Part shown: in pieces, positions 809-16,171 of the stretch
Layout: each line of letters opens with the position of its first letter
How positions within the stretch are numbered: position 1 is the stretch's first letter
Source: a virus
Length of the DNA: 23,510 nucleotides
Strand: one strand, 5' to 3'
IMG/VR virus record: IMGVR_UViG_3300034190_000859
Span: 1-23,510 of that record
The notes under the pieces: generated by a model
What the model was told of the DNA's origin: nothing
The model's database searches: none
What the model saw: only the letters and a program-made list of their open reading frames with translations
Program-made: the position numbers and the translations under genes

Positions 809-2701
809 CTAGTTGGCTTCAAGTACAGAAACTCGTGCCTTCAGTGATTCGATCTCACCAATGGCTTCCTGCAATGCAGCAGTCAGCAGAGGCACCAACT
901 TGGACTGGTCGATGCCTTGATAAACAGGATTGCCATCATCATCAACTTCGTTATGCGTTCCAGTAACTGCTTCTGGTACGACAGTCTGTGCTTCGTGTGC
1001 AAGAAAACCATCGACTGTTGTTTCAGCATCAGCGATGAAGTTGAAACGCTTAGGTGCAAGTTGCTTGACACGAGTAATACCGTCAGCAATATCAACAACA
1101 TTTTCTTTCAGACGGTGGTCGGAAGAGGTGTTATAGGCGGTGGCACTTGCACTTGTTGAAATAGAGCCTACAACGCCATTAGTGTTTGAAAATGAAATAT
1201 GATGTCTTAAACTCGTTGAACCAGCTGCGCATTCGATTGCGACATCTCCAGAATTGCTACTGGTTGTTGTTACAACGCCAACTCTTGAAGTTGTCTTCCA
1301 ACTAGCACTAGCGTAGGTAGTGCTGCTTGTGCCTAGAAGAATGCGACCACTGGATTGAATCCTCATCCGCTCAGTCGGAGAGCTATTCGTAGACGCAGTA
1401 GTGGAGAACACTAGGCGGGTTGGTTTATCTCCTGTTGCGTGATCAAGATCTGCCTCCGCTGCCATAAAGGCACACGATTGGTAGGTGCCATCCGAATCAT
1501 TACCGAAAAACTCAATACGGCCTAAAGTATTACCACTAACTGTAGACGTATCGTTGCGAGCAAGTGCAATAATGCTTCCTGCGTTGCTTTGAGCGATCTG
1601 AAGCGGAACACCTACGCCTGTCGTAACTGGACTAGACGTGCCAACTAACAGCCTGCCCGAGCTGTCGATTCGCACCCGCTCGTTATTACCGCCAGTTAGC
1701 AATCGAATACTTCCAGAAGTATCCGTTGAAGCCAATGTCACGTCATCATCTGCACCATATAAGTAGCCTTTTTGAACACCAGCTTTAGCAAACCAATAAA
1801 TGCCTCCAGTAGATCCACTGGCTGTAACGCCAGTAAAGCCTGCGCTTGTCAAGGCCGAAGTAGTGCCAATCCCAACGTTGCCTGTCGTTAATATCGAATT
1901 GCCACTGCTACTGCCGACATCTAAAACAGTATTGGTAGCGCCATTGTTTGCGTTTCCTTGGTTAATTGTCAATGTTTTGGAATCAGACGATCCAGCATTT
2001 TCAATTTCAAATGCGCGTGCGCCTGACGAATTAACCGTTAATTTTGCATCGCCAGTACTCGTGCCAATCCCTACGTTGCCCGAGCTGTCGATAAACAACC
2101 TCCCCGTGCCATTAGTCGAGATGGCTACTTGGTCCGCTCCAGGGGAGTAAATGCCGGTGTTGGCATCACCGTCAAAGCTAAGATCAGGCGCACTTGCACT
2201 TGCTGCATTGTCAAGCAACAACGCACCAGTCATGGTGTCGCCGCTGACATTCACAAATTCACCGGCTTCACTGCGCCATGCAGTGCCGTCGTAAATCTTC
2301 AGTACATAATTACCGCCAGTAGTATCTAGCCATTGCTCACCTTTTTCGACACCTTGCTGGCCAGAAACGGTGCCATCACCTGTTGTCGTTCCAGTGGCGG
2401 TAAAAATAACGCCGACGGTATTTGCGCTTGCACCGACCAAGGTGAAGTCAGACGTGCCAACCGTCAAAATCTGATAAACCGTCCCAGTGACAAGCGCGGT
2501 CGCTGCAACACTGTCCGGTGATGAATTTGGTGCGCTGGTGCCGATATGCACCGGACCAACTTTTACCAAATCGCCGTTGCTGTCCTTAAAGAACAAGCCA
2601 GGTGATGCTTCATTCGTATTGATCGCAATCTGACCCGCCGACATCACAGTCGGAATAGGGCGCTTGTTTGCAGTGCCGCTACGAAGATGTTGGAGGGCCA
2701 T
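809..2701 (-). CDS. Tail fibre/spike with C-terminal S74 intramolecular chaperone
   Basis: This 630-aa protein starts at ATG 2701-2699. Residues 1-60 are an N-terminal module typical of phage fibres (MALQHLRSGTANKRPIPT). Residues 67-116 carry a TSDFTLVGASANTVG..FTATG module also present in the tail hub gene. Residues 120-145 hold a GEQWLDTTGGN..YDGTAWR motif. The shaft has repeated GNVGIGT and SSGRLLVGTSS strands, as in long beta-helical fibres. The last 104 residues are a Peptidase S74 domain: S527 in SDHRLKENV with K532 five residues on, the spacing of the Ser-Lys pair of endosialidase chaperones. Self-cleavage before S527 would release the chaperone after trimer folding. It ends with a short helical LKARVSVLEAN tail. 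It is probably a receptor-binding fibre; the receptor is unknown. Confidence 0.92.
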   Translation of the reverse strand: MALQHLRSGTANKRPIPTVMSAGQIAINTNEASPGLFFKDSNGDLVKVGPVHIGTSAPNSSPDSVAATALVTGTVYQILTVGTSDFTLVGASANTVGVIFTATGTTTGDGTVSGQQGVEKGEQWLDTTGGNYVLKIYDGTAWRSEAGEFVNVSGDTMTGALLLDNAASASAPDLSFDGDANTGIYSPGADQVAISTNGTGRLFIDSSGNVGIGTSTGDAKLTVNSSGARAFEIENAGSSDSKTLTINQGNANNGATNTVLDVGSSSGNSILTTGNVGIGTTSALTSAGFTGVTASGSTGGIYWFAKAGVQKGYLYGADDDVTLASTDTSGSIRLLTGGNNERVRIDSSGRLLVGTSSPVTTGVGVPLQIAQSNAGSIIALARNDTSTVSGNTLGRIEFFGNDSDGTYQSCAFMAAEADLDHATGDKPTRLVFSTTASTNSSPTERMRIQSSGRILLGTSSTTYASASWKTTSRVGVVTTTSSNSGDVAIECAAGSTSLRHHISFSNTNGVVGSISTSASATAYNTSSDHRLKENVVDIADGITRVKQLAPKRFNFIADAETTVDGFLAHEAQTVVPEAVTGTHNEVDDDGNPVYQGIDQSKLVPLLTAALQEAIGEIESLKARVSVLEAN

Positions 2702-2748: not shown

Positions 2749-5700
2749 TCAATATGTGCCGTCATCAAGCTGGGACGTCAAAGCGACCGTACCGGTCAAA
2801 TCGGGCAGCGTGACGGTATGGTCAGCCGTTGGGTCTGCCACCGCAAGTGTTGTCTCAAACGCATCATCCGTTGGACCTTCAAAAACAAATGACCCAGTGT
2901 TGCTAATCAACACCTGGCCCGTAAATGTTCCGCCAGCTTTTGGAATAGCCAATGCGGCGAGGTCATACGCAGTCTTGACCCCGTTTGGTGTTGCCGCAGT
3001 GGTCGTGCTAGATGAAGCAATTCCATCAGTAAGCTGCAAGACACCAACAGCACTTGTTGTGCCGGTGCTAATTGTTAGCGCAGGCGTTGTCGTTCCACTG
3101 GTTACACCAAGCGGCGCAGATACCGTGACTTCAGTGACCGTACCAACCTGATTGGCGATCCACTCAAGGCCAGTCGTTTCGCTGCTGTTTGCACTGAGGA
3201 TATAGCCGTTTGTGCCAACAGCGAGTTTGTTAAGCGTCGTCGAAGCACTGGCCGCAATCAGATCACCCTTGGCGTAAGAAGCGATATTGGTGCCGCCACG
3301 ATTAACGTCCAACACGCCGCCAGTCATGTTGTCTACATCGCGGCACTCATTGCTGACTTCCTCCAATGCAGCTTGCACATTCGTAGAGCCAAGACTTGCA
3401 GCAGGAACAAACGCAACGTTGCTCGCAGTTTGCGCGGTATAAGTGCTGGAAACATCAATTTCTAACCATTCGCCACCTGTCGAAAGCAGAAGGTCAGGCG
3501 GAGCAAGCGCAACCGTTGGGGCAGGTGCTGTGCCAGTGCCGGACTCAGAAACAACAAGGTAATAATTTGAGTTAGTGCTGCTAGCACTTGGCAAACCAGT
3601 GCCAACACTTAGGCCAATTGCCGTACCATCAGTGGTGACGCTGGCAACTTGGTTGGTACTTGCGTCATAAGTTCCAGCCAGAATAATTGCGCCAGCAGAA
3701 ATGCCAATTGACTGCCAGACGTTGCCGTCCCACATGAAAAAATTCTTATCAAGTGGGTTAAAATGCAGCTGGCCAATAAATGAAGCGCTAGGCAGCGTTT
3801 CTCCAATAGATGATGTAGACCTGTCGGCAAGCTTTACGGCTGTAACCGCGCCCGAAGCAATAAAGTCAGAGGTAAAAGTGCCGCTGTTGATTTTTGATGT
3901 ATCTAGGTTTGGAATATCACTGGCGACCAAATCAGCAGCCGCCGTAATATGACCTTGAGCATCAAAAGTAATTCCGCTTTTGGTTGCTCCAGTGACGCTA
4001 TTACTGTGATTTAAAGTGCCACTGCTGACGGCAAGTCCAGTGCCTGGCTGGATAACACCCTTGGTGGATGCAGTCGCGTCCGGCAAATCATCGGGCACCA
4101 ACGCTCGGAATGTTGGAGCGGCATCTGCGCCTGAGGCAGGACCAACAAAAACGCTGTTAGCGGTTTGCGTATCTAAACTAAGGGTTAGATTTGCAGTAAA
4201 TGCATCAGGGTTATTAACAACAACCGACAACGGAGTTGAGTCGGTGATCGTTACAGATTGAATCCCGGCCTCTTGCGTCCAAGCCGTGCCATCCCAGCGA
4301 TAAGCAATGCTAGTGCTGGTGTTAAACCAACCCTGACCAGTAAACGCACCTGTGCCAGAAGGCGTTGCAGCACTAACGATGCAAGTTGATTGATCGCCTA
4401 GCTTGTCTTCGTTAACAGAAGAATCATTGATTTTTGACGTTGTGACTGAACTGGCTTGTAAATTGCCTGCGGCAATAATATCGCTAGCCAAAGTGGTCGC
4501 AAAAGATCCGGTGCCGCTGCCAGTAACAGCGCCGGTAAGCGTAATTGTTTGATCACCAGTGTTTGTGCCTGAACTGGTGCCAGAAAATGTTGAGCCGTTG
4601 GTCCAAGTGCCAGTTGCAACAGCAAGATCTCCTAGGCCCAATGTTGCGCGCTGATCAGCAGTAGTTGCATCCGCAAGCAAATCTCGACCGGCTGAAGTGC
4701 AGGTGATTTCCTCGAAATTGCCAGCGCCTGCAGTGCTACGACCCAGAATTACGTTTGTGCTGGTTGAATTTTGCAGCTTGGCAAACGTGACGGCATCATC
4801 ACTAAGAGCAGAAGTATTGACAACACCTGTTCCAAAACTTGTTGCAAAACTGCCGGTGCCAGATCCAGTTACAACGCCCGTCAGAGTAATCGTTTGATCA
4901 CCTGTGTTGGTGCCGCTGCTGGTTCCTGCAAACGATGATCCGTTTGTCCATGTACCAGTGGCAAGGGCAATATTGCCCAACCCAAGGCTGGAGCGTTGCG
5001 CTGCCGCGTCTGCTCCGGCAATCAACGTCCTACCCGCTGCAGTACAGGCAATCTCTTCAACGGTTCCGCCGCTGGCAGTGCTACGCCCTAAGACAACATC
5101 ACTTGTAGATGTGTCTTGGATAATGTCATAGGTAACAGCGTCAGAAGCAAGCTCTGTTGTACCGACAACGCCAGCAGAAATAGCTACAGCAAACGAACCA
5201 GTGCCGGAACCAGTTACATCGCCCGTAAGCGTGATCGTTTGATCACCCGTGTTTGTTCCGCTCGTAGTACCGGAGTGCGTACCGGAAAACGTACCATCTT
5301 GAGTCGCAAGCGTCCCAAGGCCAAGGGTCGTGCGCTGTGCTGCAGCATCAGCATCATCAAGCAATGCACGACCTGCTGTTGTCAGGCTATAAACCGCATA
5401 AGTATCAGATGCAGTTAAATAAACGCTTTGATCAGCTGCCGTCGTAAGTCCTGCGATCGACTCAAGGCCAGCGTCATAAGCCTGAACATCGACGCCAATT
5501 TCAACACCAAGATTGACCCTAGCGTTGACAGCATCAGATGCGCCAGTACCACCATCGGCAATCGTCAGATCAGTGATGCCAGTAATAGTGCCGCCGGTGA
5601 TCGTGGCGCTGCTAGAACTCAGGTTTGCAGTAACCGTTCCAAAGGTGACAGAATCGTCAGTGTCGATGCCAAGAGTTGTGCGCTGAGCAGCGGTATCAGC

Positions 5701-6051
5701 ATCATCCAGCAAGGCTCGACCTGCTGCAGTGCAAATAATCTCTTCAACAACACCAACCCCAGCAGTCGATCGACCCAATAATCGATCAGTTGCCGTTACA
5801 TTTTGAATCTTGGAATAGGTAACACTATCATCGGCCAGCGCAGTGGTGCCAATCTTTGTCGTGCTGCTTTGATCAAGCTTGTCAAGATCAATTGAGCTGG
5901 CATCAACCAAGTCGAGACCAGCATCAACAAGGTTCTTTGCCGTGACCTTTTTGGTCTCAGAACCGCTGATGTCAGCGATGGGCAAGACATCATTAGCCGC
6001 AACACCAGCCTTGCTCAGCTCGTTAAGTTGCGTTATGCGTTGATCAGCCAA
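2749..6051 (-). CDS. Large repeat-rich tail fibre protein, 1100 aa
   Basis: The frame runs from TTG 6051-6049 to TGA 2751-2749. No ATG or GTG lies between this TTG and the upstream in-frame stop. A GAGG stands 8 bases before it, and the first residues (ADQRITQLNEL.., then DVLPIADISGSETKKVTAKNLV) are a common fibre N-terminus, so TTG is the likely start. The product is low in aromatic and charged residues and rich in Thr, Ser, Gly, Ala and Val. Residues about 90-520 contain repeats of about 115 aa with LGRSTA, CTAAGR, AQRTTLGLG and SGTNTGDQTITLTG blocks. Two G-W/H-FN...WDG..W motifs lie near 575-595 and 800. No enzymatic domain is seen. It is probably a side or tip fibre; which one cannot be told from sequence. 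Confidence 0.88.
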   Translation of the reverse strand: MADQRITQLNELSKAGVAANDVLPIADISGSETKKVTAKNLVDAGLDLVDASSIDLDKLDQSSTTKIGTTALADDSVTYSKIQNVTATDRLLGRSTAGVGVVEEIICTAAGRALLDDADTAAQRTTLGIDTDDSVTFGTVTANLSSSSATITGGTITGITDLTIADGGTGASDAVNARVNLGVEIGVDVQAYDAGLESIAGLTTAADQSVYLTASDTYAVYSLTTAGRALLDDADAAAQRTTLGLGTLATQDGTFSGTHSGTTSGTNTGDQTITLTGDVTGSGTGSFAVAISAGVVGTTELASDAVTYDIIQDTSTSDVVLGRSTASGGTVEEIACTAAGRTLIAGADAAAQRSSLGLGNIALATGTWTNGSSFAGTSSGTNTGDQTITLTGVVTGSGTGSFATSFGTGVVNTSALSDDAVTFAKLQNSTSTNVILGRSTAGAGNFEEITCTSAGRDLLADATTADQRATLGLGDLAVATGTWTNGSTFSGTSSGTNTGDQTITLTGAVTGSGTGSFATTLASDIIAAGNLQASSVTTSKINDSSVNEDKLGDQSTCIVSAATPSGTGAFTGQGWFNTSTSIAYRWDGTAWTQEAGIQSVTITDSTPLSVVVNNPDAFTANLTLSLDTQTANSVFVGPASGADAAPTFRALVPDDLPDATASTKGVIQPGTGLAVSSGTLNHSNSVTGATKSGITFDAQGHITAAADLVASDIPNLDTSKINSGTFTSDFIASGAVTAVKLADRSTSSIGETLPSASFIGQLHFNPLDKNFFMWDGNVWQSIGISAGAIILAGTYDASTNQVASVTTDGTAIGLSVGTGLPSASSTNSNYYLVVSESGTGTAPAPTVALAPPDLLLSTGGEWLEIDVSSTYTAQTASNVAFVPAASLGSTNVQAALEEVSNECRDVDNMTGGVLDVNRGGTNIASYAKGDLIAASASTTLNKLAVGTNGYILSANSSETTGLEWIANQVGTVTEVTVSAPLGVTSGTTTPALTISTGTTSAVGVLQLTDGIASSSTTTAATPNGVKTAYDLAALAIPKAGGTFTGQVLISNTGSFVFEGPTDDAFETTLAVADPTADHTVTLPDLTGTVALTSQLDDGTY
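4480..5760 (-). repeat. In-frame tandem repeats of about 345 bp within the 1100-aa fibre gene
   Basis: The block encoding SGTNTGDQTITLTG recurs with its GCCGGT/GCCCGT edge at 4531, 4876 and 5221, spaced exactly 345 bp (115 codons) twice. The CTAAGR-LL-AD-AQR block recurs near 4692, 5037, 5376 and 5724, spaced 345, 339 and 348 bp. Copies are diverged at the DNA level, mostly at third positions, while the protein motifs are kept. This fits old duplication followed by selection on the protein, with room for length change by recombination between copies. Confidence 0.85.
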
Positions 6052-6090: not shown

Positions 6091-6966
6091 TTAGTCCGTA
6101 TCCTCCTGCAGCAAATAGTTGAGGGATTGCTCAACGCGAATCCGATCGTCGTCTTCTTTGAGGATGTATTGAGACGGCTTGCCTGTCACCAGCCTGACAT
6201 CTCCTGTCGTCACGAAATCAATCGAACAACTGATGATGTCATCAGCAGCAACAGTTACACCAGAACTTGTGACAACTGCCGTCAAAAGGTAGAAAACATT
6301 GTCCACATTTGGATCGACCTCTTTGTCGGTCAAATACAAAGCCAAGTCAAACGCTGACCCAAGATCAACCCTTTGAATAAGTTGAATCAAAAGCTTAGGT
6401 GTTTCTTTGACTCCTGACGTAGTGCTGTCAAATGCACAGTCGATCCGACCAGAGCCGCTAATGATTCCAGCCGAATACTGCTGACGAAACTTATCGCTTA
6501 ATGCCGTTGAGTCGATCTGCTCTCGATCGCTTTGGAACTCATACCGCAAGACGTTGCCCAGCACGTTGAAGCCAACGTCTCTGACGGTAATCGTGACATC
6601 GATCGAGTCGCCAGTAAATGCCTCCAATGCAATTTCATTTGCCCTGGTGTTGTTAACAGCATCGGCAAAACTAGAAAACAGGCGCAAGCCGCCAGCGGCA
6701 TTCACATTGATAAAAGCGCTGAAGGTGTCTTGCGTTGTATTAGAGGACCAAGCGCTTGCTGGGATGAAGTCAAGACCCCTTGCGTCAGCAGTGACGATGT
6801 CAACCCTATCGCCAGTGAAAAGGTTATCAGTGGAGCCTTCAATGCCAACGCGATTCAACGTCAACGCAAGGTCATCTAAGGCGACACTGCTTGCAAGCTC
6901 GCCAATCGAAGGATCAGCTCCACGTCGAAGCCTGACGTTCCCTTTAGTGCCAAGAAAAAAGGTCAT
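6091..6966 (-). CDS. Expanded tail-tube-like protein, 291 aa
   Basis: The ATG at 6966-6964 overlaps the previous TGA as ATGA. The N-terminus MTFFLGTKGNVRLRRG matches the starts of the 149-aa and 146-aa tube proteins (MAFYRGEQGNVLFKHD and MAFYTGRTGSLVFNSK). Residues about 140-260 follow the rest of that fold: a YEFQSDREQIDSTAL strand, IISGSGRIDCAFD, ALYLTDK and VTSSGVTVAADDI...DFVTTGDV. Residues about 18-138 are an extra beta-rich insertion with LFTGDRVDIV, and about 261-291 form an acidic tail. It lies between the 146-aa tube-like gene and the large fibre, so it probably belongs to the tail tip or the fibre attachment site. The similarity was judged by eye from shared motifs; the exact role is inference. 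Confidence 0.72.
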   Translation of the reverse strand: MTFFLGTKGNVRLRRGADPSIGELASSVALDDLALTLNRVGIEGSTDNLFTGDRVDIVTADARGLDFIPASAWSSNTTQDTFSAFINVNAAGGLRLFSSFADAVNNTRANEIALEAFTGDSIDVTITVRDVGFNVLGNVLRYEFQSDREQIDSTALSDKFRQQYSAGIISGSGRIDCAFDSTTSGVKETPKLLIQLIQRVDLGSAFDLALYLTDKEVDPNVDNVFYLLTAVVTSSGVTVAADDIISCSIDFVTTGDVRLVTGKPSQYILKEDDDRIRVEQSLNYLLQEDTD

Positions 6967-7406
6967 CAGGAAATAACTTCAGTAAACTCTCCATTGACAG
7001 TAAATGTAATCGGAACAACGCTTAGCTCGCCAGTTGAAACTGAAACCGTTGCCGAGGTGATGAAAGCGTTGAACTTGATGTCGTCAGTGCTGCCAGTCCC
7101 GACGTTAAGCTCAAGTGTCACTTCTTCATTGTTTGTTCCAGCATCGATTGAGCCAATTTTCATTATTTTGCCCAAAAGAGCCGTGAATTGCGTGTAACTA
7201 TTTGGCTCGGTCCCTTCAAGCCTGTAATACATCAAAGTTGCGCTGCCGGTTGCGCCTTTCACGCCTGGCGTGAATGTATTTGACGTGCTTTCAATGGTGT
7301 TAGTGCTTAACAGCTCAACCGTCGTCTCAATCGACCAGTCACGGATCTTCGCTACTGGCTTGGAATTGAAAACCAAGGATCCAGTCCGCCCAGTGTAAAA
7401 AGCCAT
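6966..7406 (-). CDS. Tail-tube-like protein B, 146 aa
   Basis: Start at ATG 7406-7404, 27 bases after the tail hub stop; no clear ribosome binding site. The sequence opens MAFYTGRTGSLVFNSK, has DWSIETTVELLST near residue 23, GATGSATLMYY near 50-60, and ends ITSATVSVSTGELSVVPITFTVNG. Each block lines up with the 149-aa protein at 15722..16171 (SWSLSIEKDSLDA, GGSGTIEVFYE, ITGAEFSATVGELQVVTLTF). The size and all-beta pattern fit the tail tube fold. A normal siphovirus needs one major tube protein, and that is more likely the copy before the tape measure gene. This copy lies after the tail hub, so it may form a minor ring at the tip or fibre base. Confidence 0.78.
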   Translation of the reverse strand: MAFYTGRTGSLVFNSKPVAKIRDWSIETTVELLSTNTIESTSNTFTPGVKGATGSATLMYYRLEGTEPNSYTQFTALLGKIMKIGSIDAGTNNEEVTLELNVGTGSTDDIKFNAFITSATVSVSTGELSVVPITFTVNGEFTEVIS

Positions 7407-7433
7407 TGATCGCGTCGGGACATTGCGTTTAGC

Positions 7434-10400
7434 TTAGCTCACATCAAATTTAGAGGCACGGAAGTCCGCCACCTTAGCCCGCAAGCTATCGTCATTTGGA
7501 ATGTTTTCGATGACGGGATACTCAATAGCCTTGATCGCAACCTCCCCTTCTTCGTCGATTTCAATCTCCATCACACGATAAACACGTTTTTTTGGCTTCT
7601 CTTGGCCCATTACGAACATTTGGCCAGTATTGCCAGACAGACCTGAAGCGGTCCTAACGCCTGTTGCTCCATCAACAGACACAGAAGCCGACTTAGCGCT
7701 GACATTGCCAGTGGCGTTGTCATACAAGAGGAAGCTGTAAGTCCCAGCACTAAGGGAGTCCAGCAAAGGCGCGTTCAAGACGCCGCCATCTAAAACAATC
7801 CCAGAAGAGTACTTATCCCAATGGCGCAGACCAATATCGACATAGATAAAATCGCCAGGCTCAATCAATGCCTCTGAAGGGAACGTCTTAAACTCAATGC
7901 CTTGGCGGATGTGGCGTCGCTGATTGCAAAGCAGCTTTCCAAAAGCGATTGCCTGCTCTCTTTGCGTGACAAACTGACTAGCGTCAAAAGTCTCGCGAAC
8001 CGCCGGAACATTGTCTTTGATGACATTTTTGCGGCAAACTTGAACGCTTTTTTTCGAGCTAAAAACGTCGGACGCTTCATATTGCCTGTAAATTATTGAG
8101 ACAATAAGCTCCTCTGTCGCGGCCCCGTAATTCAAAAACTCTTCTTTATATGACCCTTCCAAAATGTTGCCTGCGGTAAAAAGCGCGGACACATTAAAAG
8201 CAATGGGCAGTCCATTCGATTCAGCAGCTTGCCCTGATGAATTAACCGGAACGGCTGGGACAAGAGTATCTTTGCCGTTTTTGCGAGCAAGCTCCAGCAA
8301 GCTAAATGCTGCCGCTTCTGCCCAGAACTCACGCCAAGAGCTTAAGTCCGCAATGACACCGTCCATATATAACCGGAACGCAGGATTGCCTGCAGCTTCC
8401 CTTGGGAAATTATTTTCTTTGCAAAAACGCTTCGCAAGCTTTAAGCCCTGGTCGTCGATGCTTGTCACATCAAGATAATGCCCGACTCCATTGGTCTTAT
8501 CTAGAACTGTATCAATGAAGATGTCGGGGGCGTAACTGCTTGACTTCGTAGGAGCATCGCTTGGATTTTCTACTGTTCGACAAAGCTTTCCTTTTGTGAC
8601 AAGCGCCGAAATGCTGCGCAAATCTTGAACGCCTCTCCCAGAAAAAAGGCCCAATGCCATCATGGTCATATTTTGATATTTCTTATCCATCCCGCTGTCT
8701 AGCTGCTGTTCAGTGACAGCAGTTAAAGCCACCTCTGGGCCAGACTCGGAGCTGAACTGAATTTGAGTATCTGAGTTAACAGAAAACATGTCCCATTCAT
8801 TTGTGTAAATAGGACCGCGCTCTGTTTCGTCTGGATAGTAACCCCTTAATTTGTCAAAATCGACTCTGCGTCCATGCCAAGATACGACAATCTTTCCGCC
8901 GTCGATCTCAAGGGTGCGCAATTGTTCCGTGTTTTCAATGTACGCAAATTTCGTAAACGGACGTGCACGATATTCAGCGCTTATGTCGTAAACCGGCTCA
9001 AACGTAAACTGCCATTTTTTCGCCGCTTGACTGTAAAACGTCAACTGACTATAAAAGTCAGCATTGCTTCCGCGCCTTAGAGCAAACACATAGCTGACAA
9101 GATTTGATGCCGTTTTGCTCCCGACCTCTTGGTAATACATGCGGAAAAAAACCATCCGGCTCTTGATGCCATTATCGGAAAGGTTGTATTCTTTAACCTT
9201 CCTCTCTCCATACTTCTTTTGGCGACCTGATATTCTGCGAAACAATCGCGATTTAAAGGAAAACTTGACTGCATTACACGCGCTCAACGTGTCGTAAGAT
9301 GCGATTTCTGCTTTGACTAAGCATTTCGCAAAGAAGGTGTTATCAAAAGACTGCGCGTATTCATCCCAGTCGGATAAAATGTCATTTATGTTATCCAAGG
9401 CTTGTTCTTTGTCTCTGATGACAGCCTTCATTGCTTGGCGAACAGCTTTCACTCCCACAGGGTCATCAACAAACTCGCCCGAAGGCAAGGCGTCCTGAAC
9501 GGCTTCAGTGTAATCAATGTCTCTATCAATAATTTTGGCGGCAAGATCATGCATGACCTCAAGATTTCTTTTGACGCGATTGTCAATTCTTGCTTGTCGC
9601 GTCGTCTCTCTGTCTCCAAGCCTCTTCAACTTGTCGTCGTATTCGCCGAGGAAGATAAACGTGTCAGCGTTTAACACGTTTCTCTTTGCGGCAGCATCTT
9701 GAAGAGCGCTGGATTTTAGCGTCGTGTTGCTCTTTTCAAGATTCGACCGATTCTCTTCGTTGGTTGAATAACTTGACTTGGTACTGGCTAATTTATCCCT
9801 TAAATCTTTTAGCTTTTCATCATTGGGGAAGACATCATAGTCGTCGCCGTTTGGGTTAAAATTAAGGCCGTTAAAATTAAAATAGTTAAAAACGCCGTTA
9901 CGGTCGATATAAAGGAAAGTGAAGAAAAGAATTTGGCCAGGCTTCATTGTTCCAAGGCTGGTGGGGCCGTCGACAATGTCTTTGCCATACCCCACAAAGT
10001 TAACTTTTGCTCCGCGATTGACAAAGGCAACTAGGTCTTCTTTGCTGACGCCGAAAGTTGCTTGTTTTTCTAAAATCTTTGCGTCAGGGTCGGCTCCATA
10101 ATAAATTCGGTTGCTTCTATCGCGTTGGATAAAAGCATTGTCGGCTTTTACGACCGTAAAATCCAAGCCATCATAAACACCTTCGTAAATAGCGTCCTTC
10201 AAGGCCCTTAAGGCTTTTCTTTGCTGACGCAATGCTCTGCGTATTGACCTCACCTTGATCACTGGTTTGTCATCGTTAAACTCATCTTTCAGAGTCTCCG
10301 TATAGGCAATCGAGCCAGCCTTAGAGAATTTATAACTGTCGTCTCCTACGACATAGGAAACTGTCTCGATTTCTTCGTTTTCAAGTTCAATCTCTGCGTT

Positions 10401-11885
10401 AAAGGTTTGCTCCCATTCAACAGTCTGCTGCCCTTTAAACGCAAGGCTCACAACTGGCGCGCTATCGTTTTTGATCACAATCGGATCTTTTCTAACACCA
10501 AAGGCCGCCGTACCAGTGCCAGTGCCCGGCCCCGTTGCAGTGAAAAATGTATCTACCTTGTTTTCGAGTGCTCCGATCAAGGTAAAGTCAGTTTGACTAT
10601 TTTTTTGCCCAAGACTAGCAATTCGATAAGTAACGTTCGCCTTGAGTTTAGTCGCAGTCAGCGTTTCACCTTCCTCTTTGTGCGGGTCAGACAGGATCGC
10701 TTGAGCTTGTTCAAACTGCTGCCGCAGCTCTCTATTTTCAGTTCTTGGCTCTTTCCGTCCATAATCAGTTGAAGGCGTTCGGCCGCTTTTGATGCATTTA
10801 AAATCAGCTGTTACGACGCCTTGATCAATACTTGTCGCGTTAGAAAGCGTAATCAGCTTGAACTTCGCCGTTCCAAGCATATAAGTTGCGCCAAAATCTA
10901 ACGTTTCAAGCATTTGACGCCGCATGTCTTCACCGGCTTTTTGTGGCTGCTTATCTCCGCCGCCCTCTCCAGCCTTTTCAAAAAACAGCTGAATTTTATC
11001 GTTTTCTTGGAAATTGCCTTGATTCGATGTCCATTTTCTATTGTCGAACTTTTCAGAAGGCATCTCGATCGAAATATTTGATTCCTCTCGCTTACCTTCA
11101 GTGTCTCGCGAGCGGACTTCGACGTTAATTGGAATAACATCAAAAACGCCTAAACTTGTTGCCGTTGAAGGCGTGTAAGCTTGGCTGAAACCCTTTTCCC
11201 TGCCATTATTAAACGCAACCAAGCAGGCTGGACGTGTTTCAGTGCTAGGCTTTAAGCGGGCGGGAAAAAACTCTTTGGATCCAAAGCCAGAAATCAACTC
11301 GCTGAATTTAGGGACACCCTCTGCGCCAGCGCTTTTACCAAAAATAAATACACTTTGGCTGCTCAGATCAGACATGCTGGTCTGACCAAAAGCAGTTCTT
11401 GTATAGTCAATTTCTTGAATTTGAGATGCGCCTAAAACAAGCAGCAGTTGCATGAACTGCGTTGATCCAAAATTTTCAATTGCAGACCATACCAATGAAC
11501 CAGAGACCCTGACATCTGCGTAAGGGTTTTGATTGGTGTAAACCAAATTGACTGGGTCGCCGTAACTTGCCAACTCTTGAGTGCTATTAAAGCCAAAAGT
11601 TGGCGCAAAGCGCTGCTCTCTGCTGCGACGTTGATCCTTGGGGGCGCTAGGGATATTTGGCTTGGGAGCAAGCAATGCCGCTCCAACCGAAAAAATTGCC
11701 CCAACAACAGTCAGAACAATTCCAACCGTGAAAGGATCGATGCCAGTGTTCCTAACGTCTAAGATCGTACCAGCCTTGTTATCCGCATACTCCTGTTGAA
11801 TCGCAACAAATTGCAAATACTCATCCTTGGTAATATCCAAGGCGTCGATCAGCTGGTGCTCATACGGAAGTAACTTGCGATCCAT
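7434..11885 (-). CDS. Tail tip / central hub protein, gpJ-like, 1483 aa
   Basis: The start is set at ATG 11885-11883, which overlaps the previous TGA as TGATG; a TTG one codon upstream is not needed. Residues 50-73 are a hydrophobic segment followed by LLAPKP, a common feature of gpJ-like hubs. Residues about 85-260 form the N-terminal hub region (TFGFNSTQELASYGDPVNLVY). Residues 409-462 hold a module shared with the S74 fibre. Residues about 680-850 are a charged helical, probably coiled-coil stretch. Residues about 1095-1240 resemble the conserved central gpJ region (APDIFIDTVLDK..., NPAFRLYMDGVIADLSSW). The protein would close the tail tube and contact the host. The order tape measure, M, L, K, J supports the call. 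Sequence divergence from lambda gpJ is high. Confidence 0.85.
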   Translation of the reverse strand: MDRKLLPYEHQLIDALDITKDEYLQFVAIQQEYADNKAGTILDVRNTGIDPFTVGIVLTVVGAIFSVGAALLAPKPNIPSAPKDQRRSREQRFAPTFGFNSTQELASYGDPVNLVYTNQNPYADVRVSGSLVWSAIENFGSTQFMQLLLVLGASQIQEIDYTRTAFGQTSMSDLSSQSVFIFGKSAGAEGVPKFSELISGFGSKEFFPARLKPSTETRPACLVAFNNGREKGFSQAYTPSTATSLGVFDVIPINVEVRSRDTEGKREESNISIEMPSEKFDNRKWTSNQGNFQENDKIQLFFEKAGEGGGDKQPQKAGEDMRRQMLETLDFGATYMLGTAKFKLITLSNATSIDQGVVTADFKCIKSGRTPSTDYGRKEPRTENRELRQQFEQAQAILSDPHKEEGETLTATKLKANVTYRIASLGQKNSQTDFTLIGALENKVDTFFTATGPGTGTGTAAFGVRKDPIVIKNDSAPVVSLAFKGQQTVEWEQTFNAEIELENEEIETVSYVVGDDSYKFSKAGSIAYTETLKDEFNDDKPVIKVRSIRRALRQQRKALRALKDAIYEGVYDGLDFTVVKADNAFIQRDRSNRIYYGADPDAKILEKQATFGVSKEDLVAFVNRGAKVNFVGYGKDIVDGPTSLGTMKPGQILFFTFLYIDRNGVFNYFNFNGLNFNPNGDDYDVFPNDEKLKDLRDKLASTKSSYSTNEENRSNLEKSNTTLKSSALQDAAAKRNVLNADTFIFLGEYDDKLKRLGDRETTRQARIDNRVKRNLEVMHDLAAKIIDRDIDYTEAVQDALPSGEFVDDPVGVKAVRQAMKAVIRDKEQALDNINDILSDWDEYAQSFDNTFFAKCLVKAEIASYDTLSACNAVKFSFKSRLFRRISGRQKKYGERKVKEYNLSDNGIKSRMVFFRMYYQEVGSKTASNLVSYVFALRRGSNADFYSQLTFYSQAAKKWQFTFEPVYDISAEYRARPFTKFAYIENTEQLRTLEIDGGKIVVSWHGRRVDFDKLRGYYPDETERGPIYTNEWDMFSVNSDTQIQFSSESGPEVALTAVTEQQLDSGMDKKYQNMTMMALGLFSGRGVQDLRSISALVTKGKLCRTVENPSDAPTKSSSYAPDIFIDTVLDKTNGVGHYLDVTSIDDQGLKLAKRFCKENNFPREAAGNPAFRLYMDGVIADLSSWREFWAEAAAFSLLELARKNGKDTLVPAVPVNSSGQAAESNGLPIAFNVSALFTAGNILEGSYKEEFLNYGAATEELIVSIIYRQYEASDVFSSKKSVQVCRKNVIKDNVPAVRETFDASQFVTQREQAIAFGKLLCNQRRHIRQGIEFKTFPSEALIEPGDFIYVDIGLRHWDKYSSGIVLDGGVLNAPLLDSLSAGTYSFLLYDNATGNVSAKSASVSVDGATGVRTASGLSGNTGQMFVMGQEKPKKRVYRVMEIEIDEEGEVAIKAIEYPVIENIPNDDSLRAKVADFRASKFDVS

Positions 11886-12259
11886 CAATCAACCCAGAAA
11901 TAGTGAGCCAATACACGGTTAACAGGCAATGAGATCACCCGCCCGCCAGGGGAGATGCAAACCAAACGTTGGTTTACAACCGTGCCAAGCGCTGGATTGT
12001 TCGTCTTGGAAATCAAGGCGACAGCACCATGTTTTGGCATTGTAAGTCGTTTCCCAACCTCAAGTAACCACCTTGCAATGCGAAAGCTTTTCAACGTGTC
12101 CGCCGTGTAGGTGTCATAAGCCCACTGAAAAGCTCCCTCGTATGGCCTCAGCCCCAAGCGCGTCCTAATTTCGCAGACCAATTGAAAGCAATCTGTCTTA
12201 CCGCTGCCATCGCTGGGTTTTGCGCCCCATTCATACTCAAGACCGATCAGGTCATTCAT
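11885..12259 (-). CDS. Tail assembly protein with NlpC/P60-like domain (gpK-like), possibly inactive
   Basis: This 124-aa protein starts at ATG 12259-12257, overlapping the previous TGA as ATGA. MNDLIGLEYEWGAKPSDGSGKTDCFQLV resembles the start of phage NlpC/P60 peptidases, with C24 at the nucleophile position. HGAVALIS (77-84) and ISPGGRVISLP (102-112) fit the following strands. The usual H-V-G motif before the fourth strand reads A90-L-G here, and the usual later histidine is C101, so the Cys-His-His set appears to have lost both histidines. Members of this family cut peptidoglycan or help tail tip assembly. The place between gpL-like and gpJ-like genes matches lambda gpK. The protein may be purely structural; a structure-based alignment is needed to settle the histidine. 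Confidence 0.72.
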   Translation of the reverse strand: MNDLIGLEYEWGAKPSDGSGKTDCFQLVCEIRTRLGLRPYEGAFQWAYDTYTADTLKSFRIARWLLEVGKRLTMPKHGAVALISKTNNPALGTVVNQRLVCISPGGRVISLPVNRVLAHYFWVD

Positions 12260-12726
12260 CGCAAGGACAAGACAGAATCAAGCGGCAGAATCCCAACGTT
12301 TTCTTCGTTCAATCGATTTGCCGGAAAATTGGACGCGACAGCGTCTGCCGCCGTATTGAAACGCAGCTCCACGGTCTCAGCGCTGAAGCTTGCCCCAAGG
12401 CCAACGTAACGCTCTGACGGGCCGTTGTTAGAAACGTTGCCACCTTCGTAGACAAAACGAGTGTTCAGTTCAAGAATGCTCTTCCGGTTGCCATTGCCTT
12501 GCTCTACAAGCCTAATGGCATATTCCGTACAAGGAAAAAGCACTTGAATTTGCGAGTTATCACCATTCAAACTTGAGACGCTTCCACTCACTTGAAATGG
12601 CGCAAAGCTGTATGACTCGGAAGCAAAAGTGCTTGTCGTATTGATGAAATAATTTTGATACCGATGAACAGTGCCGCTGTCGTCGGTGATCTTAAGATAT
12701 TGAACCATTCTGATCTGTGTGCTCAT
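12256..12726 (-). CDS. Minor tail protein, gpL-like, 156 aa
   Basis: The ATG at 12726-12724 overlaps the TGA of the gene before it as ATGA, and its own TGA overlaps the next start in the same way. The product has a beta-rich first half (IRMVQYLKITDDSGTVHRY, then ASESYSFAPFQVSGSVSS) and a middle with FPCTEYAIRLVEQGNGNRKSIL. Two cysteine pairs of the kind that bind an iron-sulfur cluster in lambda gpL are not visible; I see only one cysteine near residue 66. The assignment rests mainly on the gene order tape measure, gpM-like, this gene, NlpC/P60-like, gpJ-like, and on size. It probably builds the tail tip around the hub. No enzymatic motif is seen. Confidence 0.6.
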   Translation of the reverse strand: MSTQIRMVQYLKITDDSGTVHRYQNYFINTTSTFASESYSFAPFQVSGSVSSLNGDNSQIQVLFPCTEYAIRLVEQGNGNRKSILELNTRFVYEGGNVSNNGPSERYVGLGASFSAETVELRFNTAADAVASNFPANRLNEENVGILPLDSVLSLR

Positions 12727-13118
12727 GATGCTTCAAGCTCTCCAGACAGTTTGATGGCAACAGTGCTGATATTGTTAATGACTTGGGAAACCTCGGGGGG
12801 AGAAGCATATCGCCACTTAATGTTGGCATTGGGAGATTGAATCTTGCCCTTAAGGCCACTCGCCATCGCAGCAAACACCTCGTTTGGCAATGTAAAAGAA
12901 CTAAATGTCCCTTCAACGTTGATGTAGTGCTGCATGATCAAGTTAGCATTTGCATCTGAAATGTTCCTAAACTGCAAATCAAGCGAATATCCGGTCTGAA
13001 CATTGCCGAACGCTCTTCTGAACACAACGCCCGATAACGACGTGTAAGTCTTGCTCGGATAATCGCCCATCGAAAAGCTTCGCTGGGAAGGCTTGATCTT
13101 GGGGAATTGTTCAGACAT
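12723..13118 (-). CDS. Minor tail protein, gpM/distal-tail-like, 131 aa
   Basis: Start at ATG 13118-13116, overlapping the tape measure TGA as ATGA. Visible pieces are FPKIKPSQRSFSMGDYPSKTY near the N-terminus, a GYSLDLQFRNISDANANLI block (about 42-61), HYINVEGTFSSFTLP (64-78), and a WRYASPPEV...VAIKLSGELEAS end. The pattern of a short proline-rich start, an aromatic GY.L.L.F strand, a helix with residues like DANAN, and a G-F-SF-LP loop fits the minor tail proteins that follow the tape measure in lambda-like tails and in cyanobacterial prophages. It probably forms the ring that joins tube and tip. Being directly after the tape measure gene supports this; the exact family is uncertain. Confidence 0.68.
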   Translation of the reverse strand: MSEQFPKIKPSQRSFSMGDYPSKTYTSLSGVVFRRAFGNVQTGYSLDLQFRNISDANANLIMQHYINVEGTFSSFTLPNEVFAAMASGLKGKIQSPNANIKWRYASPPEVSQVINNISTVAIKLSGELEAS

Positions 13119-15154
13119 CAGGCGATACCAACTCGGGCGCGTGTTCGTGGGCTATTTTGCATCCTATCCAGAGTCATGTTCATGCCCCTGGTTGCGCCAT
13201 CATTAGCAGCTTGGCGCCTGGTTGTTGCCATCGCAAGCTCCAACTGCTCGCGGCTAACGTACTCAGTTCCGCCAATGTTAGTCGTCTCAAAAGTAAAGTT
13301 CATTGAGCTTGCGGCCCCAGCAGGGGAACGCCCCATCAGTCGGCGCATGTCTTCGTTAGAGCTAACCTGACCCGATTGTGACGGCATAAACAATTCTGGC
13401 CCACGCTCGCCAACTAAATAAGGGCGTCCGCCTTCCACAGGGCCACCGTTGGCTCGTCCAAAAATTGAACCCAACCCTGGAATGCTGCCCAGCAAACTGT
13501 TGACGCCAAATTGCAACAGAATCCTGCCGACATTACGCAAGACATCTGAAGCAATCTCAGACAGTTTTTTCGTGCCCTCAACAGCAGACGACAAGGCATC
13601 GACAATTCCCGTGGAGATTGTGTCACCAATGGATTTATATAGCTCTTTCATCTTGGCCGCCTCTTCTTCCATTGTATTCTGGAAAAACGCCTTAAATTCG
13701 CTCTGCGCTTTTTGCCTTTCCTCGACAAGCTTTATTGTTTCTCCAATAGAGTCAGCAGTTCTTTCAAAGACGTAATCCATAATCGCAGCTTGCTCTCGAT
13801 TTGATGCGATCAATGAATTATTGGCCAACAACTCTTCTTGTTGACCAGCTGCGGTTGTTGTCTTGATTCTGGCGGCAGCATCTTGCTTGTCATATTGAAT
13901 TTGCAACAGCTCGCGTTGCAAATCAGTTTCTTGCCTAGTCAGCTCCAAAGTGCGTTCTTGTTCTTGCAAAAGAACAGCACCAGCTTTCATTTGATCAGCG
14001 AGGATGTCCGCAGCGCTTTTGCCTCGGCCTCCGCCACCAGCAGTGCCGCCCAATAACTTAGGCACACTTAAATCAGGAGTCTTAGGCGCATCAGCAGCAG
14101 ATAAGCCAAAACCTGATTCAAACAATCTTGCTCTTTCGTTTCTCAAAGCCGCTCGTTGTTGCCCTGTCGGACGACCACCTTCTTTAATCCCAAGATTTAT
14201 ACGAGCCTGCTTATTGATAGCGGCTGCTCTCTCCATTCGCCGAAAAAGATTGTTAATTTGATTTGTAATTGTTGTCAAGAAATCGATGATTCCTTTGAAA
14301 ACAGGAGAAAGGAACTTGCCTATGTTTTGACCAAAGCGCTGTAAAGCGTCTTGCAATGTGGACAACTTGCCGAATAATGTGTCCGATTGAGCGATTGCGC
14401 CGTTTGCATATTTGCCGCCTTTTTCGGTCAACCTAATCAAAGCCACCTCTGCAGCCTTTGCGCTTATTTGGCCTTTTCGCAGAGCCGCGCTAAATTCTTC
14501 ACCTGTCATCCCGTACATCTTTCGCAGCTCATCTTGCAAAGCGACGCCACGTGCTTGCAGCTGCAACAGTTCTTCGCCTTGCAAGCGACCCTTGGCTTGA
14601 ATTTGACCAAACGCTGTAGCGATTCCGCCAAGATCAGCGCCCGTTGCGCCTGCAATATCAGCAAGACGCTTGGTTATCCCTACGACTTTGTCAGTTTCAA
14701 ATCCAAACGCCTTCATGCGTTTGGCCGTTTTAATCAGCTCTTGACTTGTAAAAGGCGTAACAGCGCCAAATGCTTGCAAGTCAGAAATTATTTCCTTCGC
14801 CGTCTTGAGCGATCCAGTCAAAACCTGCAGGCTTTTAGTTTGCCGCTCAAGCTCGCCAGCTTGCATAAACGCAAACCTCAAGCCAGCAATCGCCGAAGCC
14901 GCTACCGCTGCAATCGCTGCCGCTTTGCCAAATCCTTTAAAACTGGCCGTCGCTTTTCTTGCGCGATCTTGAATTTTTTTTAAAGCACTAACAGCTTTAT
15001 TCTTAGCGCGCTCAAAGGCTGGCCCAATTTTTTTGACCGAGCTTTTCAGTCGCTCGACCGCACGTTCTACTTTCTTGGTTGTTTGCTGTACTTTTCGCAG
15101 CGGGTTGACAGCCTTGGCGGCATCGACAATCAGTTGTACTGAAGCTTGTGCCAT
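13118..15154 (-). CDS. Tape measure protein, 678 aa
   Basis: Starts at ATG 15154-15152, 23 bases after the end of the chaperone extension. Residues 1-75 are basic and helical (KVQQTTKKVERAVERLKSSV). A hydrophobic stretch lies at about 78-97. Residues about 100-275 look like the tape measure N-terminal domain, with LTGSLKTAKEIISDLQAF, VTPFTSQELI and GRLQGEELLQLQARG. Residues about 375-530 are Gln/Glu/Arg-rich helices. A second hydrophobic region at about 540-565 is followed by the widespread C-terminal motif ANGGPVEGGRPYLVGERGPELF. It sets tail length and is ejected with the DNA. By the general rule of about 0.15 nm per residue the tail would be near 100 nm. The preceding chaperone gene and the following minor tail genes agree. 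Confidence 0.93.
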   Translation of the reverse strand: MAQASVQLIVDAAKAVNPLRKVQQTTKKVERAVERLKSSVKKIGPAFERAKNKAVSALKKIQDRARKATASFKGFGKAAAIAAVAASAIAGLRFAFMQAGELERQTKSLQVLTGSLKTAKEIISDLQAFGAVTPFTSQELIKTAKRMKAFGFETDKVVGITKRLADIAGATGADLGGIATAFGQIQAKGRLQGEELLQLQARGVALQDELRKMYGMTGEEFSAALRKGQISAKAAEVALIRLTEKGGKYANGAIAQSDTLFGKLSTLQDALQRFGQNIGKFLSPVFKGIIDFLTTITNQINNLFRRMERAAAINKQARINLGIKEGGRPTGQQRAALRNERARLFESGFGLSAADAPKTPDLSVPKLLGGTAGGGGRGKSAADILADQMKAGAVLLQEQERTLELTRQETDLQRELLQIQYDKQDAAARIKTTTAAGQQEELLANNSLIASNREQAAIMDYVFERTADSIGETIKLVEERQKAQSEFKAFFQNTMEEEAAKMKELYKSIGDTISTGIVDALSSAVEGTKKLSEIASDVLRNVGRILLQFGVNSLLGSIPGLGSIFGRANGGPVEGGRPYLVGERGPELFMPSQSGQVSSNEDMRRLMGRSPAGAASSMNFTFETTNIGGTEYVSREQLELAMATTRRQAANDGATRGMNMTLDRMQNSPRTRARVGIA

Positions 15155-15177
15155 ACCCGCTCAGCGATTCTTCCATG

Positions 15178-15713
15178 TTACCGCTGCCGCGCCCTTGCGC
15201 GATCCATTGCTTTCTTTTCCTCCTCCCCCTTCAACTCATAAAACGCCGCAAAATAAACAAGCTCCGCATCGGTCAACTCCGTGCGGAGCCTGCTGACAGT
15301 CATGCCTAGCTCGCAGGCCAAGAAGAACTCAAAAAAGGTCCAATTGTCCTGCTTTAGTCTTTTTTTACTTCGTCCAGGTCGGTCTCCTCGTCAAGCCCGA
15401 ACAAGAACAGCTCAAGCTCATTGAGCACTGACTCTGGTAATTCATGCTGAAGCTTGGCAGCATCACCGCTGTCAAAGGCTTTTGTTCCATCCTTAAGCTC
15501 GGCAAGCTGACACAGCATCTGCGTACTGATGTCCAATGCTTCTTCGCTATTCGCAAGGTTTTGAGCACGTTTGCGATCAGCTCGCGTGATCGGGCGAAAA
15601 TAAAGATCTAGGACATTTGCCCCGGCTTTGTTTTTAATGCTGAACTTGCGACGTTGGTTAAGGTCAAATGCCCCAACCAACAAATCAACTGTCCGAACAG
15701 CTTTGGAAGGCAT
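15178..15713 (-). CDS. Tail assembly chaperone GT, -1 frameshift fusion, about 178 aa
   Basis: If ribosomes slip -1 on the A run at 15366-15360, translation continues AGA CTA AAG CAG (from 15360) and stays open for 60 codons to TAA at 15180-15178. The added part reads WTFFEFFLACELGMTVSRL, then LTDAELVYFAAFYELKGEEE and a basic RARARQR end. A conserved-looking helical domain just before the tape measure gene, in -1 relation to the upstream gene, is the classic G-T design. The extension has no good start of its own; an ATG at 15303-15301 would leave out the first 19 residues. The T part would bind tail tube subunits and the G part the tape measure protein, as known for lambda. The slip itself is predicted, not observed. 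Confidence 0.85.
15354..15713 (-). CDS. Tail assembly chaperone G, unshifted product, 119 aa
   Basis: The frame runs from ATG 15713-15711 to TAA 15356-15354. The protein has a KFSIKNKAGANVLDLYFRPITRADR start region, a middle helix with AQNLANSEEALDISTQML, and an acidic end LFGLDEETDLDEVKKD. It lies between tail tube A and the tape measure gene, the standard place for gpG-like chaperones that coat the tape measure protein during tail assembly. The last sense codons before the stop form a run of seven A, where ribosomes can slip -1 to add a second domain. No Shine-Dalgarno is visible; the 8-base gap after the tube gene suggests coupling. The role is inferred from place, size and the frameshift design. 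Confidence 0.85.
   Translation of the reverse strand: MPSKAVRTVDLLVGAFDLNQRRKFSIKNKAGANVLDLYFRPITRADRKRAQNLANSEEALDISTQMLCQLAELKDGTKAFDSGDAAKLQHELPESVLNELELFLFGLDEETDLDEVKKD
15360..15366 (-). promoter_or_regulatory. Slippery heptamer for -1 ribosomal frameshifting
   Basis: On the minus strand the bases are seven consecutive A, read GTA AAA AAA GAC TAA in the chaperone frame, so the heptamer is A-AAA-AAA followed by G. This allows both tRNAs to re-pair after a -1 step, and the zero-frame stop follows only two codons later. I see no strong pseudoknot in the next 40 bases, only a weak imperfect inverted repeat near 15355-15335. A-rich heptamers can work without one, but the efficiency cannot be judged from sequence. 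Confidence 0.8.
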
Positions 15714-15721
15714 ACACTAAA

Positions 15722-16171
15722 TTAAGCAACAGAAGCGATTGCAATTGTTCCCTTAGTATCGAAAGTAAGGGTTACAACTTGCAGCTCGCCAACAGTAGCA
15801 CTGAACTCCGCGCCCGTAATTAAAATATCAAAAGTAATTTTTTCGCTTCCGCTGCCTTGACTGCCAGCGTCGTAAGTGTAAAGCTCGGCGCTTGCGTTTG
15901 TAGATTCTGTCGAAGAAGTCGTTAAAATCTCGCGAATTAAATCGCCTTTGCCATCGCCGGCAGCAGTCTTCTCGTAAAAAACTTCGATCGTGCCGCTGCC
16001 GCCAATTAGACCACCTACGCGATTGCGAAAGTCATTTCCAAAAACAGTTGCGTCAAGTGAATCTTTTTCAATCGACAGCGACCACGACTGAACAGCAGTC
16101 ACAACAGTCAAAGTGTCTGCAGAATCGTGCTTGAACAACACGTTGCCTTGTTCGCCACGATAAAAGGCCAT
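15722..16171 (-). CDS. Major tail tube protein A, 149 aa
   Basis: Start at ATG 16171-16169 with GAGG ten bases upstream. The sequence shows MAFYRGEQGNVLFKHD, an AVQSWSLSIEKDSLDATVF strand region (27-44), LIGGSGTIEVFYEKT near 55-69, a long loop, and ITGAEFSATVGELQVVTLTFDTKG near the end. The all-beta pattern and the size fit the stacked-ring tube protein of siphoviruses. The place directly before the chaperone and tape measure genes is where the major tube gene normally lies. Two other genes in the window, at 6966..7406 and 6091..6966, share its motifs; this one is the best candidate for the bulk tube because of its place and good ribosome binding site. Confidence 0.85.
   Translation of the reverse strand: MAFYRGEQGNVLFKHDSADTLTVVTAVQSWSLSIEKDSLDATVFGNDFRNRVGGLIGGSGTIEVFYEKTAAGDGKGDLIREILTTSSTESTNASAELYTYDAGSQGSGSEKITFDILITGAEFSATVGELQVVTLTFDTKGTIAIASVA

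Follow-up and report, generated by a model that had tools for sequence, protein, structure and literature searches.

Two tube-fold proteins encoded between the tail hub and the fibre of uncultured aquatic phages, and their possible role in fixing the fibre to the tail tip

Three tube-fold genes in one tail gene cluster

The locus described here raises the question of why a phage tail gene cluster should encode, besides its tube protein, two further proteins that resemble it, both placed after the hub and directly before the fibre. The initial annotation had suggested that duplicated tube protein builds either minor rings of the tip or a collar for the fibre. The window (the whole stretch of DNA analysed) is a 23.5-kb virus fragment on which all structural genes lie on the - strand, in the order portal, Mu-F protein, scaffold-position protein, capsid, terminator and tube, followed by a chaperone-position protein, the tape measure, g131, g156, a small gpK-position gene and the hub, and past the hub by TTP2, TTP3, fib1 and a second fibre. 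The three tube-like ORFs are located as originally annotated, and the tail features on which the argument depends are as follows.

15722..16171, - strand: major tail (tube) protein, 149 aa, between the tail terminator and the tail assembly chaperone; phrog_10528 major tail protein, 5e-14
13118..15154, - strand: tape measure protein; PF20155, 2e-20
12723..13118, - strand: g131, minor tail protein at the distal-tail (gpM) position; phrog_15525, 4e-22
12256..12726, - strand: g156, at the gpL position, adjoining the small gpK-position gene; phrog_25799, 1e-12
11885..12259, - strand: small tail protein at the gpK (NlpC/P60) position, its role taken from gene position; weak matches only, to DUF6950 (0.007) and phrog_329 (0.028)
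7434..11888, - strand: tail hub at the gpJ position, 1484 aa, assigned from gene order with weak Phage-tail_3 and phrog_27845 tail protein matches
6966..7406, - strand: TTP2, first post-hub tube-fold protein, 146 aa, without an insert; hhalign with the tube and AlphaFold model
6091..6966, - strand: TTP3, second post-hub tube-fold protein, 291 aa; hhalign with the tube and AlphaFold model
2749..6051, - strand: fib1, fibre gene directly downstream of TTP3; phage fibre repeat PF03406, phrog_24210 tail fibre
809..2701, - strand: fib2, second fibre protein, with an endosialidase-type chaperone (S74) end; PF13884, phrog_18345

The TTP3 ATG shares one base with the TTP2 stop codon (junction TGATG), and the window's tube protein is 36-48% identical to the tube proteins of the cyanosiphophages MED4-117 and S-H1. 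A small repeat-like domain (Y.I...G..TDFT.IGA..N..G..FTATG.GTGTGT) occurs both in the hub (window 10506-10631, residues ~420-461) and in fib2 (2366-2476, residues ~76-112); in another locus (L215:1059-1610) it interrupts a tube protein behind strand 1, and it has the look of a module that moves among structural proteins.

The claim that the three proteins are paralogues held. Pairwise BLASTP linked the tube to TTP2 (4e-9) and to TTP3 (2e-5), with no similarity in the direct TTP2-TTP3 comparison (1.4). Profile-profile comparison with hhalign, using alignments of the three families assembled from the retrieved loci (64, 70 and 37 sequences), gave significant similarity among all three: E=1.6e-19 for tube-TTP2, E=5.7e-11 for tube-TTP3 and E=2e-4 for TTP2-TTP3, values that are single comparisons from shallow profiles. 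In an independent search of all ORFs, an HMM from one family detected the other families in the window at 2e-8 to 1e-15, and among 35 larger contigs the tube HMM detected one or more tube-fold genes in 34, usually both TTP2 and TTP3. Similarity among the three is far above chance. The shared motifs singled out in the annotation are also present, M1 (nearly always), G6 and G9 being invariant or nearly so across all three family alignments. As a negative control, the neighbouring g131 matched the tube profile only at E 0.41, which leaves g131 unsupported as a further sequence-detectable tube paralogue. TTP2 members gave weak-to-moderate matches to the tube families phrog_10528/phrog_1407, Phage_TTP_11 and Phage_tube_2, those to the Pfam families falling below Pfam gathering scores; a sequence search of solved structures returned no convincing match.

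The AlphaFold models of TTP2 (pLDDT 79) and TTP3 (pLDDT 71) both resemble solved tail tubes, Foldseek and VIA-align finding in each the beta-sandwich, flanking helix and long hairpin of the tail tube fold. The top Foldseek match of TTP2 was the lambda tail tube (gpV; 8k36, E=2e-6), and VIA-align gave Z 9.8 for its model against the monocin and Sf11 tubes. The TTP3 model gave Z 12.5 against the SaPI1/80alpha tube and 11.6 against the tube of the marine siphophage R4C; a search of a viral structure library with TTP3 yielded no informative named relative. As modelled, TTP2 is a plain single tube fold, and TTP3 is built of strand 1, an insert of ~115 residues, the remaining tube fold and an acidic C-terminal tail. 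The tube-homologous part of TTP3 comprises residues 1-15 and about 131-262, with the unrelated insert in between: its profile alignments to the tube and to TTP2 pick up again at residue 133-136, the tube alignment running to ~260, and its hairpin retains the tube pattern ..D/E..(L/I)D.T....F....G(L/I)I.GSG. The two added parts map as follows.

6577..6918, - strand: inserted domain of TTP3, following strand 1, about residues 17-130, delimited by the profile alignments and seen as a confident beta-rich stretch in the model
6094..6177, - strand: acidic C-terminal tail of TTP3, about residues 264-291 (..YILKEDDDRI..E...LLQE), conserved in family alignments

The tail has low pLDDT in the model and a median net charge of -6; the insert has no Pfam match. 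Other loci (L050:1-774, L061:283-1104, L114:150-923 and L333:4014-4823) encode tube proteins ~258 aa long in which ~105 residues are inserted behind strand 1, and this insert domain recurs at the C-terminus of a hub ORF of L271. Profile comparison of the inserts of the longer tubes (L050, L061, L114) with that of TTP3 gave no support for a shared domain. The site after strand 1 therefore accepts domains, since true tubes of other viruses carry a different insert at the same place.

Distribution and ancestry of the post-hub pair

Six scans of viral contigs, one of which alone yielded at least 582 stretches encoding TTP3, showed a nearly fixed gene order. TTP2 lies directly upstream of TTP3 in 239 of 244 distinct TTP3 genes (the other 5 are at contig ends) and is itself preceded by the hub (126), g131 (101), a tandem TTP2 (3) or a contig end (9). 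The gene that follows TTP3 is the fibre in 216 of the 244, a tandem second TTP3 in 1 and a contig end in 27, so that the fibre is the neighbour in 216 of 217 readable cases. The pair always follows the hub and never occupies the major-tail gene place between the terminator and the chaperone or tape measure. The Dit gene place, after the tape measure and before the hub, is filled by g131 or, in loci where that gene has been relocated, by g156. In about 100 loci (L178, L211, L239 and L050 among them) g131 is found between the hub and TTP2 instead of after the tape measure; we rejected the idea that it is an extra copy there and regard it as moved, since g156 then directly adjoins the tape measure. 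Tandem copies of TTP3 (L359) and of TTP2 (L350, L354, L355) were also seen. Ordinary tube proteins aside, no cultured carrier of TTP2, TTP3 or distant members was found among 50,697 phage records, and a scan of bacterial genomes gave a single contig, binned as Flavobacteriaceae, which is too weak to name a host. These uncultured aquatic phages are an abundant group, for which the pair makes a good marker.

The annotation had taken a single tube gene to be the norm for siphophages. That norm fails here: many relatives have two tandem tube genes before the chaperone, as in the cultured Synechococcus phage S-H1 (L157, 19558-20420), L201, L194, L238 and about 50 other loci, the tandem genes of relatives showing 36-46% versus 45-52% identity to the window's tube. 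The prevalence of such tandem genes would suit an explanation in which TTP2 and TTP3 are recent tandem duplicates of the resident tube gene, alternative subunits mixed into the tube with no special role. However, in a maximum-likelihood tree the tube, TTP2, TTP3 and the longer tubes formed four highly supported clades, with the tandem copies nested inside the tube clade and TTP2 and TTP3 separate from it; its long branches make any order of the splits tentative. Judged from these sequences, TTP2 and TTP3 are ancient clades and not fresh copies of the resident tube.

The pair also persists where the tube has been replaced by an unrelated protein. The viruses that carry the TTP2/TTP3 cassette have at least three head-and-tube sets unrelated to one another. 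One combines an HK97-type capsid-protease fusion with a lambda-type portal and a Phage_tube_2 tube; another has a PF09950 capsid together with a 192-aa gene that occupies the tube position (its tube role taken from position only). TTP2 and TTP3 are thus not tied to the resident tube, and we consider the recent-duplicate explanation very improbable. Of the proposed duplicated tube protein, the homology stands, and derivation from this phage's own tube is not supported, given the tree and the occurrence of the pair with unrelated tubes; TTP2 and TTP3 may instead have come with the tip. Head-tail recombination in this group is marked, one tail-tip cassette occurring with unrelated head and tube sets in L326-L330, L334 and L335 versus L331, L332 and L337. 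In L337 (5841-7882), genes read from the sequence as sugar aminotransferase-like and NAD-dependent epimerase-like adjoin the head genes of the carrier.

Co-inheritance with the fibre and competing roles

Rank correlations of pairwise identities across 51 dereplicated loci (the full set of 72 loci gave the same picture) divided the tip genes into two blocks. In one block g131, g156 and the hub co-varied at 0.82-0.90; in the other, TTP2 correlated with TTP3 at 0.62, TTP3 with the fibre N-terminus at 0.61 and TTP2 with the fibre N-terminus at 0.52, the part of fib1 involved being its N-terminal ~75 residues. The correlation of TTP2 with the hub was only 0.17, although the hub adjoins TTP2 in most of the 51 loci, and partial correlations gave the chain TTP2 - TTP3 - fibre, with TTP3 retaining some hub correlation beyond the fibre. 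As the loci share kinship, these correlations are descriptive, with permutation support of P=0.003 (299 permutations), and are not proof of contact. Between the two gene-order groups, as compared with within them, median identity dropped from 0.41 to 0.23 for the hub and from 0.51 to 0.25 for g156, whereas the within and between medians were flat for TTP2 (0.64, 0.67), TTP3 (0.56, 0.53) and the fibre N-terminus (0.67, 0.70). Thus, TTP2, TTP3 and the fibre N-terminus travel as one module. The contrast is weaker inside the main gene order alone (TTP2-hub 0.46, TTP2-fibre 0.52), and the strongest evidence is therefore the exchange across groups.

Exchange of TTP2, TTP3 and the fibre as a unit, across different hubs and tubes, leads us to favour, as somewhat probable, the explanation that TTP2 and TTP3 are tail-tip structural proteins that reuse the tube fold to fix the fibre to the tip. 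The contacts would run from the tip core (distal-tail protein and hub) to a TTP2 ring, from there to TTP3 and on to the fibre N-terminus, and the fibre would probably dock on the inserted domain and the acidic C-terminal tail that distinguish TTP3. Here we infer the presence of both proteins in the virion, their position and copy number and which surface touches what. The initial proposal, whether as tip rings or as a collar, fits all of these findings; co-inheritance favours its fibre-docking half, and the rings or collar are what the predicted fold suggests. Joint exchange of adjacent genes could arise through linkage alone, but linkage fails to explain the sharp break between the hub and TTP2. 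Also against docking, in cyanophage KBS-S-2A the hub is directly followed by a fibre whose first 41 residues are related, with no tube-fold pair, so this type of fibre can attach without TTP2 and TTP3.

The main rival to fibre docking, and a possible one, is that the two proteins form central minor rings, like T5 p140 or T4 gp48/gp54: hexamers lodged in the channel, with the last tube ring on one side and the distal-tail ring on the other, that act as tube initiators, their fibre linkage being secondary. The strong conservation of TTP2 (median 66%, higher than that of the hub) would equally suit a buried central ring. So would the whole tube fold kept in the models of both proteins, the tube pattern of the TTP3 hairpin, the membership of the pair in the tip cassette whatever the tube, and the fact that there are always two proteins, as with gp48/gp54 of T4 (PMC8718954). 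However, TTP2 and TTP3 move with the fibre and not with g131 and the hub, and one tip pair would need to fit several unrelated tube proteins. Furthermore, the cultured cyanosiphophages KBS-S-2A, S-H1 and MED4-117, with portal and capsid 65-75% identical to those of the window, have different tail tips and no TTP2 or TTP3; S-H1 among them also has a similar tube, chaperone and tape measure and a g131 relative, so that a tube of this kind can start without the pair.

More tentatively, fibre docking could take the form of a collar whose tube-fold rings lie outside the DNA channel, with TTP2 and TTP3 encircling the tip as an exchangeable socket that moves with the fibre between otherwise unrelated tips. 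It is improbable that TTP2 and TTP3 are tube-fold assembly factors or fibre chaperones that are not retained in the virion. They do adjoin the fibre and are inherited with it, but a literature search found no precedent for such factors, the tube-fold phage tail proteins known to us are structural, and conservation of TTP2 above that of the hub would be unusual for a fibre chaperone.

Comparison with known tail tips

The distal tail protein (Dit; gpM of lambda, pb9 of T5) is a tube-fold ring of the tip that carries adsorption proteins in some phages. In the window it is g131 that follows the tape measure, at the gpM gene position, and the Pfam and PHROG matches of TTP2 and TTP3 include no Dit/gpM family. 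The pair differs from the phrog_10528/phrog_1407, Phage_TTP_11 and Phage_tube_2 tubes in forming separate clades and in its post-hub position.

The anchoring of side fibres has been worked out in only a few siphophages. A module of two tube-fold proteins, kept constant as hubs and tubes are replaced around it, would explain the swapping of fibres between aquatic phage tails, and TTP2, TTP3 and the fibre make a defined protein set for testing fibre anchoring. That tube-fold proteins occur in tail tips was already known from T5 and T4. What appears to be new is a conserved post-hub pair, one member with an insert, exchanged with the fibre across hubs and tubes; it was not found in the literature or the 50,697 phage records searched, and other collections may hold it. 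A literature search for tube paralogues in siphophages beyond the T5, T4 and Mu cases found none.

gp48/gp54 of T4 (and the tube initiators of Mu) resemble TTP2 and TTP3 in being a pair of tube-fold proteins, which there form rings in the tail tip (PMC8718954; PMC10038345). T4 and Mu, however, are contractile phages with a distinct gene order, rings of the gp48/gp54 type start both tube and sheath assembly, and no sequence link of the pair to these proteins was found.

The annotation had envisaged a distinct tip design through duplicated tube protein, but T5 p140 is already such a case: it is a tube-derived ring in a siphophage tip and the seat of the p132 side-fibre collar, and p140 and p132 have been described as specific to T5-like phages (PMC10038345). 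p140 is a trimer that forms a pseudo-hexameric ring, with two tube domains per subunit, and the p132 collar has an Ig fold (PMC10038345), whereas TTP2 has one predicted tube domain and TTP3 one plus the insert, so that neither has the two-domain architecture of p140. The pair is also encoded after the hub, next to the fibre, and no sequence relation to p140 was detected. The likeness lies in a tube-derived tip protein that seats a fibre collar (PMC10038345), comparable with the fibre docking proposed here for TTP2 and TTP3. p140/p132 is the closest working precedent for such docking, and the movement of the module with the fibre suggests that here, too, a rebuilt tube ring holds the fibre on the tail tip.
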